DNA from: Hyphomonas sp. Mor2
GTDB lineage: Bacteria; Pseudomonadota; Alphaproteobacteria; Caulobacterales; Hyphomonadaceae
Assembly (NCBI RefSeq): GCF_001854405.1
Contig: NZ_CP017718.1
Span: 2,108,001 to 2,172,000, forward strand
DNA: 64,000 bases
Direction of reading: 5' to 3'
Made by a program: the position numbers and the translations under genes. The notes beneath the pieces were generated by a model, which ran no database searches, was not told where the DNA came from, and was given only the letters and a program-made list of their open reading frames with translations. Shown piece after piece: positions 8,065 through 64,000 of this stretch (position 1 is its first letter; each line of letters begins with the position of its first letter).

Positions 8065-8159
8065 CAATTCTCTCCCAAAAGCTGGCAGCACGACTTGCGC
8101 GCCATTTAGGTATAATCCACTATTCGCCCTTCTCTTTAGCCAAAGTTTACAAGGTCACA

Positions 8160-9008
8160 ATGCCCCAAAATGCCTCTGCCCTAGCGTTAAAGGCGCTCAC
8201 CGAGTGGTGGGAGGAGATGGGAGTCGCTGTTGACCAGGGCGAGATCGAGGCTGCAGTGCAGGCACAGCAGGCCACAGGCACAGGCGCTAGCGAAGCGCAC
8301 GCCCCTGCAATTCAAGACCCTCCGCGTGAGACACCAGGAGAAGTCCGAAACTCGCGCAAATCACGCCGAAACTCGCAGAAATCCCTCCCGGACTGGATCA
8401 AGGAGGCCGAAGCGCTCGCGGCTGCAGCTGATTCGCTCGCTGCCCTGAAAACGGCGATTGAGAGCTTCGACGGCTGCCCGCTGAAACAGCTCTGCGAGAA
8501 AACGGTCGTCTATGATGGCACGCTCGAGGCGCCGGTCATGATCCTCGGCGAAGGCCCTGGCGGTCAGGAGGACCGGATCGGCCTGCCTTTTGTCGGCAAG
8601 GCGGGGCAGCTGCTCGACAAGATGCTCGCCGCCATTCAGCTCGATCGCAAGACCAATACGTTCATCTCCAACGTCAATTACTGGCGCCCGCCCGGCAACC
8701 GCAATCCGGAAGCGGATGAACTTGCCGTCTGTCGCCCGTTCGTGAACCGGATGGTCGATCTGGCCCAGCCGAAGATCATTATCGCGACCGGCGGCGTGGC
8801 GGCGAAATCCCTGCTCGACACCAAGACCGGGATCATGCGCCTGCGCGGCTCGGAGCGGCCGTTCGAGACGCCGGCCGGAACGCGGGTACCGCTGGTCCCG
8901 ATGTTCCACCCGGCCTATCTCCTGCGCCGCCCGCAGGACAAGAGCCGCGCCTGGCGGGATTTGCTACTGGTGCAAGCGCGGTTGAAAGAGATGGGGGTGG
9001 AGGTGTGA
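8160..9008 (+). CDS. Uracil-DNA glycosylase, family 4-like, lacking one Fe-S cysteine
   Basis: This enzyme should remove uracil from DNA. From the ATG at 8160 it has 282 residues: a low-complexity leader (about 1-75), then motif 1 GEGPGGQEDRIGLPFVG at 130-146, and the late motif HPAYLLR at 250-256. Classical family 4 enzymes bind a [4Fe-4S] cluster with CxxC and two later cysteines. Here the first pair is spaced Cys106-x5-Cys112, the third ligand position (before RPPGNR) is Trp175, and Cys191 remains, so a normal cluster looks unlikely. Its stop overlaps the next gene's GTG. Confidence 0.88.
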   Translation: MPQNASALALKALTEWWEEMGVAVDQGEIEAAVQAQQATGTGASEAHAPAIQDPPRETPGEVRNSRKSRRNSQKSLPDWIKEAEALAAAADSLAALKTAIESFDGCPLKQLCEKTVVYDGTLEAPVMILGEGPGGQEDRIGLPFVGKAGQLLDKMLAAIQLDRKTNTFISNVNYWRPPGNRNPEADELAVCRPFVNRMVDLAQPKIIIATGGVAAKSLLDTKTGIMRLRGSERPFETPAGTRVPLVPMFHPAYLLRRPQDKSRAWRDLLLVQARLKEMGVEV

Positions 9009-59392: not shown

Positions 59393-59674
59393 ATGGTGGA
59401 AAAAATGGCGCAGAATGCACAATCTCTCAGTGTGCGTGGCCCGGATGGTCGCCCGCTGACTCTTTCAGACCTGCCAAAGCCCGGCATTACCCGCTGGGTG
59501 ACACGCCGCAAAGCAGAAGTCGTGGCTGCCGTCACCGGTGGTCTGCTTTCTGAGGAAGAAGCGCTTCGTCGCTACGATCTCAGCGAAGAAGAATTCTCCG
59601 GCTGGCGGGCACTTTATTCCAAGCACGGCCGCAAAGGCCTGCGCACAACCCGGCTGCAACAATACCGCGCCTAG
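59393..59674 (+). CDS. sciP: CtrA inhibitor SciP
   Basis: The 93-residue protein has the DUF1153/SciP pattern GPDGRPLTLSDLP, TRWVTRRKAEVVAAV and GGLLSEEEALRRYDLSEEEF with a basic C-terminus (HGRKGLRTTRLQQYRA). SciP blocks CtrA-driven transcription in the dimorphic cycle, mainly after swarmer division. It lies directly before flagellar genes, as I recall for Caulobacter. Start ATG 59393 or ATG 59405. Confidence 0.92.
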   Translation: MVEKMAQNAQSLSVRGPDGRPLTLSDLPKPGITRWVTRRKAEVVAAVTGGLLSEEEALRRYDLSEEEFSGWRALYSKHGRKGLRTTRLQQYRA

Positions 59675-59769: not shown

Positions 59770-60447
59770 ATGCCCGCATCTGCGCCGGGCAAAGGTGTCG
59801 ACATGAGCGCGAAAACCCGAACGCCTTATCCGCGTCTGATCGCCCTGGCTGCGCTCGTGCTGGCGGCAGGGCTTTTATCTGTTCGCACCTATGACATCTT
59901 TGGCAGTGTAAAGTCCGAACCGGTCGGCAGCGCGCTTGAGCGTGAGCTGACCTATCTCCTCGAACCAATTACCGGCGCCGACCGCGTCCGTGTCTCGGTC
60001 ACCGGACGCAGCGATCGCACCGTGCTGGTCATGATTGATGGCGAGATGGGTAGCGATTTACGGACTCAACGCGTCCAGATCGAAAACATCCTCATCGCCT
60101 CGCTCGGCTTTGACCCTGCGACCGACACGCTCACGCTGACGCAATTCCCGTTCGCGCGCGGGGTTGGCAGTTCCCTCACAGCGTTTGAGATCGCCGAACT
60201 GACAGGGCTCGGCCTGCTTTGCGCGATCCTGCTCGCGGGCACGCTCAACGCCCCCACCGCCTCCACACGCGCTGCAGCGCCGGAACCCGCCTTGCGCCGT
60301 GAGCCCGTCCTCGCCGCCCAGGCGCGATTGCCTGCGCCGCAAACGAGCATGGACGCCGATTTGAACGAAGCCGCCAGGCTGGCCGAGTCGAAACCCAATG
60401 AAACCGCCAATGTCGTCCGCGACTGGCTGTCTTATGCGGAGGAGTAG
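59770..60447 (+). CDS. fliF: Short FliF (MS-ring) homologue
   Basis: The protein has 225 residues (ATG 59770; ATG 59803 is an alternative). It shows a first membrane segment (22-38), a domain like the third ring-building motif (LERELTYLLEPI at 57-68, then RTVLVMIDG at 83-91 and IENILIASLGFDPATDTL at 104-121), a second membrane segment (about 140-159), and a C-terminal tail (LAESKPNETANVVRDWL) that matches the FliG-binding end of FliF. FliF is normally over 500 residues; there is no room for RBM1 and RBM2 between this gene and sciP. fliG follows directly. Confidence 0.7.
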   Translation: MPASAPGKGVDMSAKTRTPYPRLIALAALVLAAGLLSVRTYDIFGSVKSEPVGSALERELTYLLEPITGADRVRVSVTGRSDRTVLVMIDGEMGSDLRTQRVQIENILIASLGFDPATDTLTLTQFPFARGVGSSLTAFEIAELTGLGLLCAILLAGTLNAPTASTRAAAPEPALRREPVLAAQARLPAPQTSMDADLNEAARLAESKPNETANVVRDWLSYAEE

Positions 60448-61374
60448 ATGACCTTGCCCGCTGCTTCCGCCACGCCGATGAAATCTGGCCTCAAGCGTAG
60501 CGCGCTGCTGATGCGGGCGCTTGGGGCGCGGGCATCCGCCGTCTGGTCGCAGCTCTCGCCGCAGGAAGCGGAAACGCTCAGTCGGGCGATGCAGGCCTTG
60601 CCGGAAGATGCGGCGTCAGAACACCGCGCCGTTGAATCCTATGTCGCCTCCATGGCCCAAACAAAGTCTGCGCCCCGCGCCGAGCCGCGCTCGATCTGGG
60701 CGCGCCTGTCAAATTGTGAGAGGACGGTGATCGCCGGACTGATCCAGGAAGAAAGCCCGCAGGTGATCGCCTTGACGCTGTCCCGGCTGGATCCGGACGC
60801 GGCGGCCAATGCCGTGCGCGCCCTGCCGCGTGCACTGGCGACGGAAGCGCTGAAACGCATGCTCAGCCTCGGCGAGGTGCACCCTGCGGCGATGAAAGGG
60901 CTCGAACTGGCGCTCGCGGCGCGGCTCGACCAGGCCCTTCCAGGCCACGCGCAAAGCGGTCATGAACAGGTGGCGCGGATCTTCGACCGTCTCGACAGCA
61001 AGTCTGAAGAATCGCTGCTCTCCTCCCTCGATACAGCGGAGCCAGGCGCCGGCGAGAAGATACGCGCCTTCATGTTCACGTTCGAGGACCTTGCAAATCT
61101 CGATGCCGCCAGTCTCCAGACCATTCTCGGCAATGTCGACCGCAGCGTCCTGACGCTGGCCCTGAAAGGTGCGCCGGAGCCAGTCGCGACCGCTTTCTTC
61201 TCCAATATCACGCAACGGGCTGCCGATCTCCTGCGCGATGAGATTGAGGCCACAGGTCCGATGCGGCGCAGCGAGATTGATGCGGCACGCAGCGACATCA
61301 TCGAAATTGCCCGCACCCTGGTCAAACGCGGCGATATCCTGACCGGACATGCTGAAGACGAGCTGATCGAATGA
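60448..61374 (+). CDS. fliG: Flagellar motor switch protein FliG
   Basis: FliG links the MS ring to the stator-facing rotor. The 308-residue protein has EESPQVIALTLSRL (101-114; the usual EHPQ-TIA motif) in the middle domain, MFTFEDLANLD (209-219) and the charged torque helix region RDEIEATGPMRRSEIDAAR (263-281). The N-terminal domain that binds FliF is shortened and diverged, in line with the odd fliF. It starts right after the fliF stop and overlaps the next gene by four bases. Confidence 0.88.
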   Translation: MTLPAASATPMKSGLKRSALLMRALGARASAVWSQLSPQEAETLSRAMQALPEDAASEHRAVESYVASMAQTKSAPRAEPRSIWARLSNCERTVIAGLIQEESPQVIALTLSRLDPDAAANAVRALPRALATEALKRMLSLGEVHPAAMKGLELALAARLDQALPGHAQSGHEQVARIFDRLDSKSEESLLSSLDTAEPGAGEKIRAFMFTFEDLANLDAASLQTILGNVDRSVLTLALKGAPEPVATAFFSNITQRAADLLRDEIEATGPMRRSEIDAARSDIIEIARTLVKRGDILTGHAEDELIE

Positions 61375-61724
61375 AACGCCGCGTCGAGAAAATCACGCCC
61401 TACCCGTTTGCCAGCGATTTCAGCGCGCCCGCGCCGGAACACGCCGACACGGTACGCATGACCCCGCAGGACCTCGCCTTGCTGCTCAGTGATGCCCAGG
61501 CCGGCGGCGCCTCGATCGCGCGCAATGATGCGCTTGCAGCCGAAGCCAGCAAGCTGGCACAGGCCTCAGATGATTTGAAAAAGGTTCTGGCCGGCATTGT
61601 CGATCTCGCCGCACATCTCGAACAGGCAGCGATTGACGAGACGGATCGCAAGGACGCTCTCGAGCGCGTGCGCCGCCTCGCCGCAGTTGTGATTGAGGGC
61701 CAGGGCGATTTATTTGGCGGCTAA
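61371..61724 (+). CDS. FliH/FlbE-like flagellar protein
   Basis: The 117-residue product (ATGA overlap with fliG) opens KRRVEKITPYPFASDF, close to the FlbE/FliH opening of Caulobacter-type clusters, followed by a helical region ending with GDLFGG. FliH normally has over 200 residues and binds the FliI ATPase; here the C-terminal half seems absent. Assignment rests on position between fliG and fliN and on the opening. Confidence 0.5.
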   Translation: MKRRVEKITPYPFASDFSAPAPEHADTVRMTPQDLALLLSDAQAGGASIARNDALAAEASKLAQASDDLKKVLAGIVDLAAHLEQAAIDETDRKDALERVRRLAAVVIEGQGDLFGG

Positions 61725-61797: not shown

Positions 61798-62064
61798 ATG
61801 ACCGTCAACCGCGCCCTCGAAGACAGCCTCATGGATGCCCCCGTCAAGGTTGACGTGGTGCTGGGCGAAGCGCGCGTACCGGTCGAGGAGCTGATGTCCC
61901 TGTCGGAAGGCGAAATTGTCGCCCTGGAAAACAGCACGACTGATCTGGTCGACATTTATGTGTCCGACCGCCTGATGGCGCGGGGGCGTCTGGTGGTTGC
62001 CGACGGACAACTCGGCGTCACGCTGAGCGAGATTGTCGACAGTCGCTCGCAAGGTTTCGCGTAG
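61798..62064 (+). CDS. fliN: Flagellar motor switch protein FliN
   Basis: The 88-residue protein has the SpoA/FliN core: PVKVDVVLGEARVPVEELMSLSEGEIVALE, then DIYVSDRLMARGRLVVADGQLGVTLSEIV. FliN forms part of the C ring. It lies 73 bp after the FliH-like gene. No flbD follows within the window. Confidence 0.9.
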   Translation: MTVNRALEDSLMDAPVKVDVVLGEARVPVEELMSLSEGEIVALENSTTDLVDIYVSDRLMARGRLVVADGQLGVTLSEIVDSRSQGFA

Positions 62065-62328: not shown

Positions 62329-63480
62329 GTGGAACGGACTGACGCTCATCACACCGGCAATCGCCGGATACCTCGACAAGCCCGGATCGGCCGGTTTCTG
62401 GAAACCTGGCTTGGCGCGCCGATCAGTTTTCTGGAATTCACGCTGCAATGGATCATGGTCAAACCGCTACGCTGGTTCTGGCGGCATCTGGATCACTGGT
62501 CCTACAAGCTGGAAGGCACATTGTTGCGCCGGATCCTGTCGCACACAATCTTTCCGTTTACCCTGGTCATGTCCGTCATCATTGGGCTTACGCTGGTGGA
62601 GAACGGGATTACCAGCCTGACGCTGCTCGGCTTTGTCTTGCTGCCCATCATTTTCGGTCTGTACTGCGCCCCACTCGAGCGTCTGATGCCGTTCAGCCGC
62701 AAATGGCTGGAAGGCGGCAATGACAGTGCCGTCGACATCATCATGTACTTTTCGGGCGCCTTCTGGAGCGGGATTTCAGGCCTGATCGTGAGTGCTCTGT
62801 TCATTATCGGCATGGTCGAAGCCCTCGAGCCCTATGGGCATGATCTCTGGCCCGATCATTGGAACCCGGTCGTCCAGGTCGCGCTGTTCATCCTGATCAA
62901 GGATTTCTTCCGCTACTGGTTCCACCGCGCCTTGCATGAGATCCCTGCGCTCTGGCGTATCCATGCTGCGCACCATTCCGTCGAGCGCCTCTACTGGCTG
63001 AACGGCATCCGCGCGCACCCGCTGGAAATTGTCAGCCAGGCGATCTTCTACGCCATTCCTCTCGCGCTGGTGCAGCCGACGGCTGAAATCGCGCTGGTCG
63101 CGGTCATCCTGCAGCTGAGCATTGGCATCTTCCAGCACTCGAATATCGATCTCAATCTCGGCTGGTGGGAGTATATCTTCTCGATCGGCGACAATCACCG
63201 GTACCACCACTATCCCGACAAAGGCATTGGCGACTCCAATTATGGCGGCGAGCTGATCATCTGGGACATCCTGTTCGGCACCTTCCACAATCCGCGCGAT
63301 GAGCGCCCGCATGACAATATCGGGATTGGCACAGCGCCGGATTATCCGATGACCGTGGCGGGGCTCTATATTGCGCCTTTCCTGCCAAACCAGAAGAATG
63401 TGTTTCGGGTGGAGCGCGAGGACCGCTCTCAAGAGGACGTCACCGCGCCCGGTAAACCGATATTGCAACCTGCCGAGTAA
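62329..63480 (+). CDS. Sterol desaturase/fatty-acid hydroxylase superfamily membrane protein
   Basis: From the GTG at 62329 (GGAG seven bases upstream) the protein has 383 residues and several membrane segments. Histidine clusters of the diiron family are visible: HRALHE (about 203-208), HAAHHS (about 215-220), HSNID (about 264-268) and NHRYHHYP (about 285-292). Such enzymes hydroxylate or desaturate lipids. The gene sits apart from the flagellar genes in orientation only by position; a link is not shown. Confidence 0.85.
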   Translation: MERTDAHHTGNRRIPRQARIGRFLETWLGAPISFLEFTLQWIMVKPLRWFWRHLDHWSYKLEGTLLRRILSHTIFPFTLVMSVIIGLTLVENGITSLTLLGFVLLPIIFGLYCAPLERLMPFSRKWLEGGNDSAVDIIMYFSGAFWSGISGLIVSALFIIGMVEALEPYGHDLWPDHWNPVVQVALFILIKDFFRYWFHRALHEIPALWRIHAAHHSVERLYWLNGIRAHPLEIVSQAIFYAIPLALVQPTAEIALVAVILQLSIGIFQHSNIDLNLGWWEYIFSIGDNHRYHHYPDKGIGDSNYGGELIIWDILFGTFHNPRDERPHDNIGIGTAPDYPMTVAGLYIAPFLPNQKNVFRVEREDRSQEDVTAPGKPILQPAE

Positions 63481-63737: not shown

Positions 63738-64000
63738 ATGCGAATGAAGATGTTTGCCGCAGAGTCCCTGGAGGCTGCAAAGGCAATGATCTTCGCGGAA
63801 ATGGGCGATGATGCGATCATCCTGTCCGAACGCGAAGTTCCTGGAGGTGTGGAAGTTCGGGCTGCTACGGACAAGATGGGCGGTGGTATGGTGCCGAGCG
63901 AGTCTCGCATCCTGACCCGTCTGGGCGCGACGCCGTCTCCGCGATTGGTTGAAAGTCCGGTCCGCAACCGGGTTCGCGACGCGCTGCTCTGGCACGGCGC
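63738..64000 (+). CDS. flhF: Flagellar biosynthesis regulator FlhF (5' part, continues beyond window)
   Basis: The frame starts at ATG 63738 after a GGAG site and opens MRMKMFAAESLEAAKAMIFAEMGDDAIILSER, the typical FlhF N-terminus (SRP-type GTPase that places flagella at the pole). The GTPase domain lies outside the window. 87 codons are seen. Confidence 0.85.
   Translation, partial: MRMKMFAAESLEAAKAMIFAEMGDDAIILSEREVPGGVEVRAATDKMGGGMVPSESRILTRLGATPSPRLVESPVRNRVRDALLWHG

Follow-up and report, generated by a model that had tools for sequence, protein, structure and literature searches.

The window analysed here, a stretch of 64,000 nucleotides from Hyphomonas sp. Mor2, contains the core of what is, in our judgement, rather likely to be an ancestral flagellum reduced to a rotor and a stator without export apparatus, probably a polar torque- or load-sensing device. 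The families of its parts are known; what is new is their combination, namely a rotor and stator that lack an exporter and would be built around a FliF cut down to RBM3. Judging from the sequences, the parts predicted to face the export gate have been trimmed and those predicted to make torque have been kept.

The ring protein, hereafter mini-FliF, is encoded by a 225-codon open frame (59770..60447, + strand) and is reduced to the RBM3 core. A preliminary description of the locus had placed this frame between sciP and fliG and had concluded that the flanking genes leave no space for more of FliF, which is correct: the frame begins 95 bases after the end of sciP (59393..59674, + strand; SciP, the CtrA inhibitor, matches NCBIfam NF051866 at 125 bits for a cut-off of 100), and fliG, itself identified by Pfam, starts at 60448, the next base after the mini-FliF stop. 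Because Met12 (59803) is invariant in an alignment of 24 mini-FliF members, and residues 1-11 are confined to the four closest of them, the true start is probably Met12, giving a protein of 214 aa.

Taken as a single sequence, mini-FliF provides weak evidence of its family (E 0.013 and 16.4 bits against Pfam YscJ_FliF_C, PF08345, below the cut-off of 23.8), and eight of the 24 members reach E <= 0.1 with this model (best 0.0022). The identity becomes firm with the 24-member profile, which retrieves Salmonella FliF (6scn) at E 7.9e-6 and Vibrio FliF at 2.1e-5. Nine PDB sequences were found at E <= 1, four of them below 0.001, all M-ring proteins; one of these four best matches is fused to FliG. 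A comparison with canonical FliF by hhalign gave 5.7e-9 and covered the second half of RBM3 and the helix that follows. Within Salmonella FliF, residues 239-271 are aligned with mini-FliF 41-74 (7.7 bits, weak alone) and residues 406-559 with mini-FliF 93-221 (27.1 bits), the intervening FliF residues being skipped. RBM3 is delimited in PMC8270960 as FliF 228-270 plus 382-438, and the beta-collar as 271-381. Both halves of RBM3 are represented in the profile alignment, which leaps from FliF 271 to 406 and leaves mini-FliF without the beta-collar insertion. As for RBM1 and RBM2 (PF01514), the sole match in the genome is a second FliF, and there is no space for them 5' of mini-FliF. The earlier claim that RBM1, RBM2 and the insertion of the upper ring wall are missing is thus borne out.

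The AlphaFold2 model (mean pLDDT 77, pTM 0.48) adds a predicted alpha-beta-beta-alpha-beta domain at residues 55-126 (block pLDDT 86-95), as expected of RBM3, and shows hydrophobic helices at 20-44 and 138-159, assigned to the membrane by eye on hydrophobicity, then two C-terminal helices. Foldseek returned no match to this model at E <= 0.001; the top rank was a ribosomal S3 (KH) structure, and FliF RBM3, PrgK and EscJ were among the best matches, a result no more than consistent with a predicted RBM3 fold. The C-terminus aligns with the ends of Salmonella and Vibrio FliF and is predicted to be a FliG-binding tail, in which Pro209 and Trp219 are invariant and Arg217 nearly so across the 24 members. 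Profile alignment and model together support the two membrane segments, RBM3-like core and FliG-binding tail that had been read from the sequence. Mini-FliF therefore shares with the canonical MS-ring protein (PF01514 plus PF08345, TIGR00206) the RBM3 domain, two membrane helices, FliG-binding tail and position before fliG, but lacks RBM1, RBM2 and the beta-collar, measures approximately 214 aa instead of 507-593 and stays below the Pfam cut-off.

The genes that follow belong to the same set. FliG (60448..61374, + strand; 308 aa) is of the ancestral, canonical Caulobacterales type (Pfam FliG_C 3.2e-34, FliG_M 1.8e-16, FliG_N 5e-8; profile against canonical FliG, 8.8e-56). It is followed by mini-FliH (61371..61724, + strand; 117 aa), for which no Pfam family scored above its cut-off and which corresponds to the N-terminal half of canonical FliH: residues 8-111 align with 7-109 of the 225-residue canonical protein, the C-terminal half being missing (hhalign 1.8e-5, prob 78; controls against FliG and FliF, 0.25 and 0.56). 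The lost C-terminal part of FliH is the one that binds the export ATPase. FliN (61798..62064, + strand; 88 aa) is recognized by Pfam FliMN_C at 4.1e-21 and, profile against canonical FliN, at 7.2e-23. An FlhF-like GTPase of 332 aa (+ strand; SRP54 5.9e-14; TIGR03499 FlhF 1.4e-18, below the cut-off) has only its start in the window (63744..64000; L003:11744-12742), and past the window end come a MinD/FlhG-like ATPase (AAA_31 5.5e-16) and then CtrA (NF045991, 414.5 bits, over the cut-off). Among the 25 stretches of the genus fetched around the locus (G004, G011, G012 and G028 being left out), all 25 have FliN, 24 have SciP, 24 FliG, and likewise 24 each of the FliH-like, FlhF-like and FlhG-like proteins, while CtrA is present in 23. 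Between fliN and the FlhF-like gene of the window lies a gene resembling fatty acid hydroxylases (62329-63480; PF04116 6.3e-31); since it is labelled in only four of 29 stretches compared, those of its own genome, G008, G016 and G025, it looks like a recent insertion.

The locus was compared with 13 canonical stretches of the order Caulobacterales, in which FliG was called in 12 and FliN in 11. Wherever the gene was called, the canonical protein was closer to that of the window than to that of the second flagellar system of the genome, indicating that the window holds the ancestral locus and that the flagellum is the other system. The possibility that the window set is a duplicate of the second flagellum can be discarded on the same ground. 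In the primary cluster of Caulobacterales, the order is fliF-fliG-fliH-fliN, then a gene for a 455-aa protein, presumably NtrC-like, then flhA; the window has the same first four genes in the same order, with good profile matches, but continues with the FlhF-like, FlhG-like and CtrA genes and has no FlhA. Sizes differ as well: in ten canonical clusters, FliF has 507-593 residues, FliG 304-376, FliH 187-225 and FliN 110-132, against 225, 308, 117 and 88 in the window, so that FliF, FliH and FliN are shorter and FliG stands at the low end of its range.

The second flagellar system is encoded on the same contig (C1; 3,628,091 bases, the whole genome G000). Its full-length FliF, at G000:C1:2292383, 125 kb from the window cluster, is the single PF01514 match (E 9.4e-44, open frame of 625 aa), and FliG, FliP, FliN, a FliM-like FliMN_C protein, FlgE, FlgK, flagellin and MotB are encoded within the 20 kb around it; MotA lies at 2282264 and FlhA at 2266084. 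This FlhA, approximately 25 kb from the second FliF, is the only FlhA match of the genome, and there is none at the mini-FliF locus. Both systems thus have FliF, FliG, FliN, FliM, MotA and MotB; the second differs from the mini set in having FliP, FlhA, FlgE, FlgK and flagellin, a full-length FliF and a divergent FliG (L002:6673-7764, - strand) without the K264 and R297 equivalents that are kept by the canonical FliGs examined. The flgB-fliI arrangement of Hyphomonas has been likened to fla2 of R. sphaeroides (PMC6180460). The Pfam model of FliM (PF02154) has no match in the 29 genus genomes nor in G051, G055 and G056, although these last three have FlhA; because it is silent in FlhA-bearing genomes, their FliM is probably too divergent for the model.

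The remaining parts of the reduced motor are encoded away from the window, at separate loci that are themselves conserved. A FliM-like protein (C1:225465) matches Pfam at its C-terminus only, but its model (mean pLDDT 68, residues 84-243 mostly 84-95) resembles C-ring FliM, which provides the top Foldseek matches (E 2.3e-12); the profile comparison of the FliM-like set with FliM of one canonical stretch was weak (prob 11, E 0.0027). All 13 FliM-like proteins carry an N-terminal motif, L[ST]..EI.ALLRP, which we take to be like the CheY-binding one. A complete C-ring set is therefore present, FliG and FliN scoring above their Pfam cut-offs and the FliM-like protein being assigned by fold. A stator pair of a second type is encoded by MotA2 (C1:2422510; PF20560 8.1e-22, PF01618 3.4e-13) and MotB2 (C1:821877; PF13677 4.7e-11), the latter having both the channel Asp and a peptidoglycan-binding OmpA domain (PF00691 2.4e-13). 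We infer from these sequences that MotA2 and MotB2 would serve the mini-FliF rotor.

The residues by which rotor and stator would act on each other are kept. FliG Arg-281 and Asp-289 are described as contacting MotA Glu-98 and Arg-90 (PMC7564593). All 26 FliGs of the mini set have Arg at the equivalent of 281 and an acidic residue at that of 289. Equivalents of K264 and R297 (the latter as Arg or Lys), positions that we presume to be correctly numbered from known FliG, are present in 25 of the 26, the exception being G024. In MotA2, with loop residues placed, as we assume, by E. coli MotA, the loop Glu is found in 20/20 sequences and the wider loop motif with Arg, searched with one pattern, in 18/20; LPALGIVAAV occurs in 20/20. 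MotB2 has the channel Asp motif WK-AYADF in all 19 sequences; the peptidoglycan motif is present in its strict form in 17 and as a close variant in the remaining two.

Counting the genome of the window itself, the short FliF was detected in 28 of 61 genomes: 25 of the 29 genus members, three of eight other family members and none of 24 in the rest of the order. Such a distribution rules out chance or a local frameshift, and with it a sequencing artefact, as the origin of the short form; a wholly unrelated membrane protein is ruled out by the profiles and the AlphaFold2 model. Seven of the relatives have named records, Henriciella sp. (5) or Hyphomonadaceae (2), all of them MAGs, and across the genus and the three further genera the identity of mini-FliF ranges from 28 to 80%. 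In none of the 61 genomes did FlhA and full FliF occur one without the other (52 have the pair, nine lack it); of the 29 genus members, 22 have the pair and seven have neither. Each of the 22 FlhA-bearing genus genomes also has mini-FliF, two MotA, at least two MotB and four FliMN_C matches, and the second-type MotA and MotB accompany mini-FliF in all 28 genomes with a match. Outside this group, G051, G055 and G056 have an FlhA that scores like that of the genus, one MotA and one MotB, and no mini-FliF match. Over 385 genomes of the class, with up to 7 candidates scored per genome, the mini-FliF profile found matches in at least 55. Among the matches listed, 47 of 56 fall in FliF-sized open frames (506-646 residues), and only those of the original genome and G032 span the whole profile. 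Five other class matches lie in short frames, and two of the three inspected look like frame-broken FliF genes: in L211 (G357) and L221 (G403), the frame of fliF is apparently broken before the C-terminal tail. The third inspected, in G089, is a 100-residue protein (L210:1498-1800, - strand) whose single hydrophobic stretch is accompanied by a FliG-binding tail like that of FliF (the other two short-frame matches are those of G348 and G147); it follows a long frame reading like a CoA ligase and is not near fliG, and the resemblance may be due to chance.

Three of the seven genus genomes without FlhA bear directly on the autonomy of the set. G006, G013 and G023 have no FlhA or full FliF match and keep mini-FliF, the FliG beside it and FliN, with one MotA_N, one MotB_plug and two FliMN_C matches each, FliN being one of the two. 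Their MotB_plug match is the weaker second type (43.6-49.2 bits, against 74-78 for the flagellar MotB of the genus). These genomes, searched for FlhA, full FliF, MotA, MotB and FliMN_C/FliM, are drafts of 95, 100 and 99% completeness in 180, 50 and 20 contigs, respectively, and a binning artefact is a less likely cause of the missing FlhA and FliF. A tree built from four neighbour genes places G006 as sister to the clade of the window genome (support 95) and groups G013, G023, G024 and G007, though weakly (54), which suggests that the flagellum was lost at least twice, or lost once and then regained. A gene next to the second flagellar cluster was found in none of seven genomes, no positive control being among them, and this count says nothing about an empty site.

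Three other genomes are reduced further, which indicates that the set is dispensable in some lineages. G024 (90% complete) keeps FliG, FliH, FliN, a FliM-like protein and MotA, no MotB being found in the genome search; its FliF (L148:4005-4385, - strand), between sciP and fliG, is down to 126 residues with two hydrophobic stretches as seen by eye, a short loop, a FliG tail and no RBM, and its FliG lacks the K264 and R297 equivalents. G007 (90%) has two FliMN_C proteins and, at the locus, the FlhF-like, FlhG-like and CtrA genes; neither mini-FliF, MotA nor MotB was found, nor FliG within the fetched stretch. G028 (95%) has MotA, MotB and one FliMN_C match, and no mini-FliF match. In the seventh genome, G011 (87% complete, in 590 contigs), MotA and MotB are each matched twice; it is uninformative.

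Relaxed selection was looked for on a tree of fixed topology by comparing, as a ratio, how long the terminal branches are for each gene and for neighbour genes, the references (FlhF-like, FlhG-like, CtrA and SciP) all being neighbours of the cluster, and the outgroup and taxa with a reference branch below 0.015 being left out. For G006, G013 and G023, respectively, the rates were 14.6, 9.4 and 13.0 for mini-FliF (flagellated genomes: 1.0-20.2, median 11.0, n=12), 8.1, 3.9 and 8.2 for FliG (0.7-16.5, median 8.4), 6.2, 5.4 and 9.9 for FliH (1.1-18.2, median 4.9), 3.8, 2.3 and 4.8 for MotA2 (2.0-5.7, median 2.5, n=9), 5.3, 2.9 and 7.7 for MotB2 (4.2-17.9, median 7.8, G013 being below the range) and 2.4, 2.9 and 4.7 for FliN (0.0-3.8, median 2.6, G023 being above it). 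These branch lengths give no clear indication of a relaxation of the set in the three genomes. The test is a weak one, since the ranges are wide and G024, despite its degenerate-looking FliG, stays within them (FliG 6.8, FliN 1.6, FliH 2.7, MotA2 2.7); the FliN of G007, at 6.9, is outside the flagellated range.

If these parts work together, mini-FliF would form a ring in the inner membrane through RBM3, on which FliG, FliM and FliN would sit as a C-ring; peptidoglycan-anchored MotA2/MotB2 would turn or press this ring by ion flow, and the FlhF-like protein would place the motor at the pole. Ion-driven rotation is what we infer from the residues and parts described. Lacking RBM1 and RBM2, the seat of the export gate, which is located within the RBM2 ring (PMC8270960), as well as the C-terminal half of FliH, such a motor could not build rod, hook or filament. 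A polar device linked to the cell cycle fits with the FlhF/FlhG and CtrA neighbourhood. The job of the motor, by analogy with Caulobacter, would most likely be to sense load or surfaces at the pole and thereby to influence adhesion and development. More tentatively, the set may be a free-standing, ion-driven rotary machine outside any flagellum, in which a polar MS ring of RBM3 only carries a complete C-ring, is driven by a MotAB pair of its own and performs a mechanical or sensory task in the envelope; this stronger version is a possibility to which we would not yet commit ourselves.

Other explanations have to be weighed against this one. The preliminary description had seen in mini-FliF either a minimal MS ring or one completed by another protein, to be given up should a second full-length FliF be encoded elsewhere or the predicted structure differ from RBM3 with a FliG-binding tail. 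The predicted structure is of that kind, and the position between sciP and fliG is also the one expected; but a full-length FliF was found, and since it lies among the flagellar genes of the same genome and recurs in 22 of the 25 mini-FliF-bearing genus genomes, it is hardly credible that mini-FliF is the MS ring of a working flagellum. As three relatives have the short FliF without full FliF or FlhA matches, the idea of a minimal ring survives in another form, that of a non-flagellar rotor anchor. Alternatively, the mini set and MotA2B2 might be an auxiliary rotor and stator, added to or alternating with the parts of the second flagellum. All 22 FlhA-bearing genus genomes do combine mini-FliF with two MotA and MotB, and in the window's genome the FliG of the second flagellum lacks the K264 and R297 equivalents; this scheme is nonetheless very unlikely, for the set persists in G006, G013 and G023, where neither FlhA nor full FliF was found, and G051, G055 and G056, with a similar FlhA, have no mini-FliF match and a single MotA and MotB each.

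Two further readings dispense with a working motor. According to one, the mini-ring and C-ring do not rotate and form a static polar scaffold that holds FlhF, FlhG, CheY-like or c-di-GMP proteins, MotA2/MotB2 acting elsewhere or leaking ions. The FlhF-like, FlhG-like and CtrA genes that come after the cluster and the CheY-binding-like motif of the FliM-like protein would suit it; yet second-type MotA and MotB are present in all 28 mini-FliF genomes, and the channel Asp (19/19), the MotA loop residues (18 to 20 of 20) and the MotA-contact positions of FliG are kept, none of which a scaffold would need, so that we consider it improbable. The other reading, that the set is a relic in decay, left over from the lost primary flagellum and without present use, seems to us no more convincing and is unlikely for the group as a whole. 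It gains from the piecemeal reduction in G024, G007 and G028, where it may well describe those lineages, from the absence of PF02154 matches in 29 of 29 genus genomes and from a rate test that fails to separate the degenerate-looking G024 from flagellated genomes, but it accords poorly with a set kept in 25 of 29 genus genomes and three further genera at 28-80% mini-FliF identity, with its key residues in place and no clear rise in rate in G006, G013 and G023.

For the reduced rotor and stator that we favour, no equivalent appeared in a literature search: none of the titles and abstract openings covered dealt with an export-less flagellar motor or a short FliF, and we know of no other flagellar motor without export apparatus. 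A functional parallel and precedent is in Caulobacter, where mutants without outer flagellar parts but with the inner-membrane rotor intact are reported to raise holdfast production via MotAB and the stator-associated cyclase DgcB, a response that depends on proton flow and rotor assembly (PMC7885107). There as here, a rotor and stator without outer parts would control adhesion, which in our case is proposed from the genes alone; the Caulobacter situation, as presented in that source, is however a mutant state of a complete flagellum, whereas the mini set is kept in some genomes in which FlhA and full FliF were not found. Non-flagellated Lysobacter enzymogenes, the nearest case among the literature covered, likewise keeps flagellar genes without flagella, but the pattern described is opposite, fliG, fliM, motA and motB being lost and the export apparatus still working (PMC9927559). 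A hat-like inner-membrane structure related to flagella has been described in Hyphomonas neptunium, of the same family (PMC9380563). The mini-FliF set was rejected as its basis: according to the same report, the structure is seen across divergent classes, in species that have flagellar export genes, and persists in an H. pylori fliF deletion (PMC9380563).

Should the proposed reading hold, the motor would be separable from the flagellum, and a natural deletion would distinguish the FliF parts used for export from those used for torque. The locus would also offer a small MS ring for structural work, in which it could be tested directly if RBM3 by itself determines the symmetry of the ring, and an example, open to testing, of a flagellar motor retained for something else than propulsion, such as sensing, adhesion or polarity. 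It would bear on the evolutionary dismantling and reuse of rotary machines, and gives a hint of a still undescribed type of rotary or sensing machine.

MotA2, MotB2 and the FliM-like gene each lie in surroundings where several genes are conserved. No candidate for the load of the motor was found among the neighbours scanned, which comprise only transporters, DksA, FlbT or genes without a Pfam family. Upstream of the FliM-like gene are FlbT (PF07378 1.7e-34), at a distance of approximately 3 kb, and DksA, immediately adjacent (L100:5261-5647 and 8156-8572, respectively), FlbT being another flagellar gene kept at a separate site.
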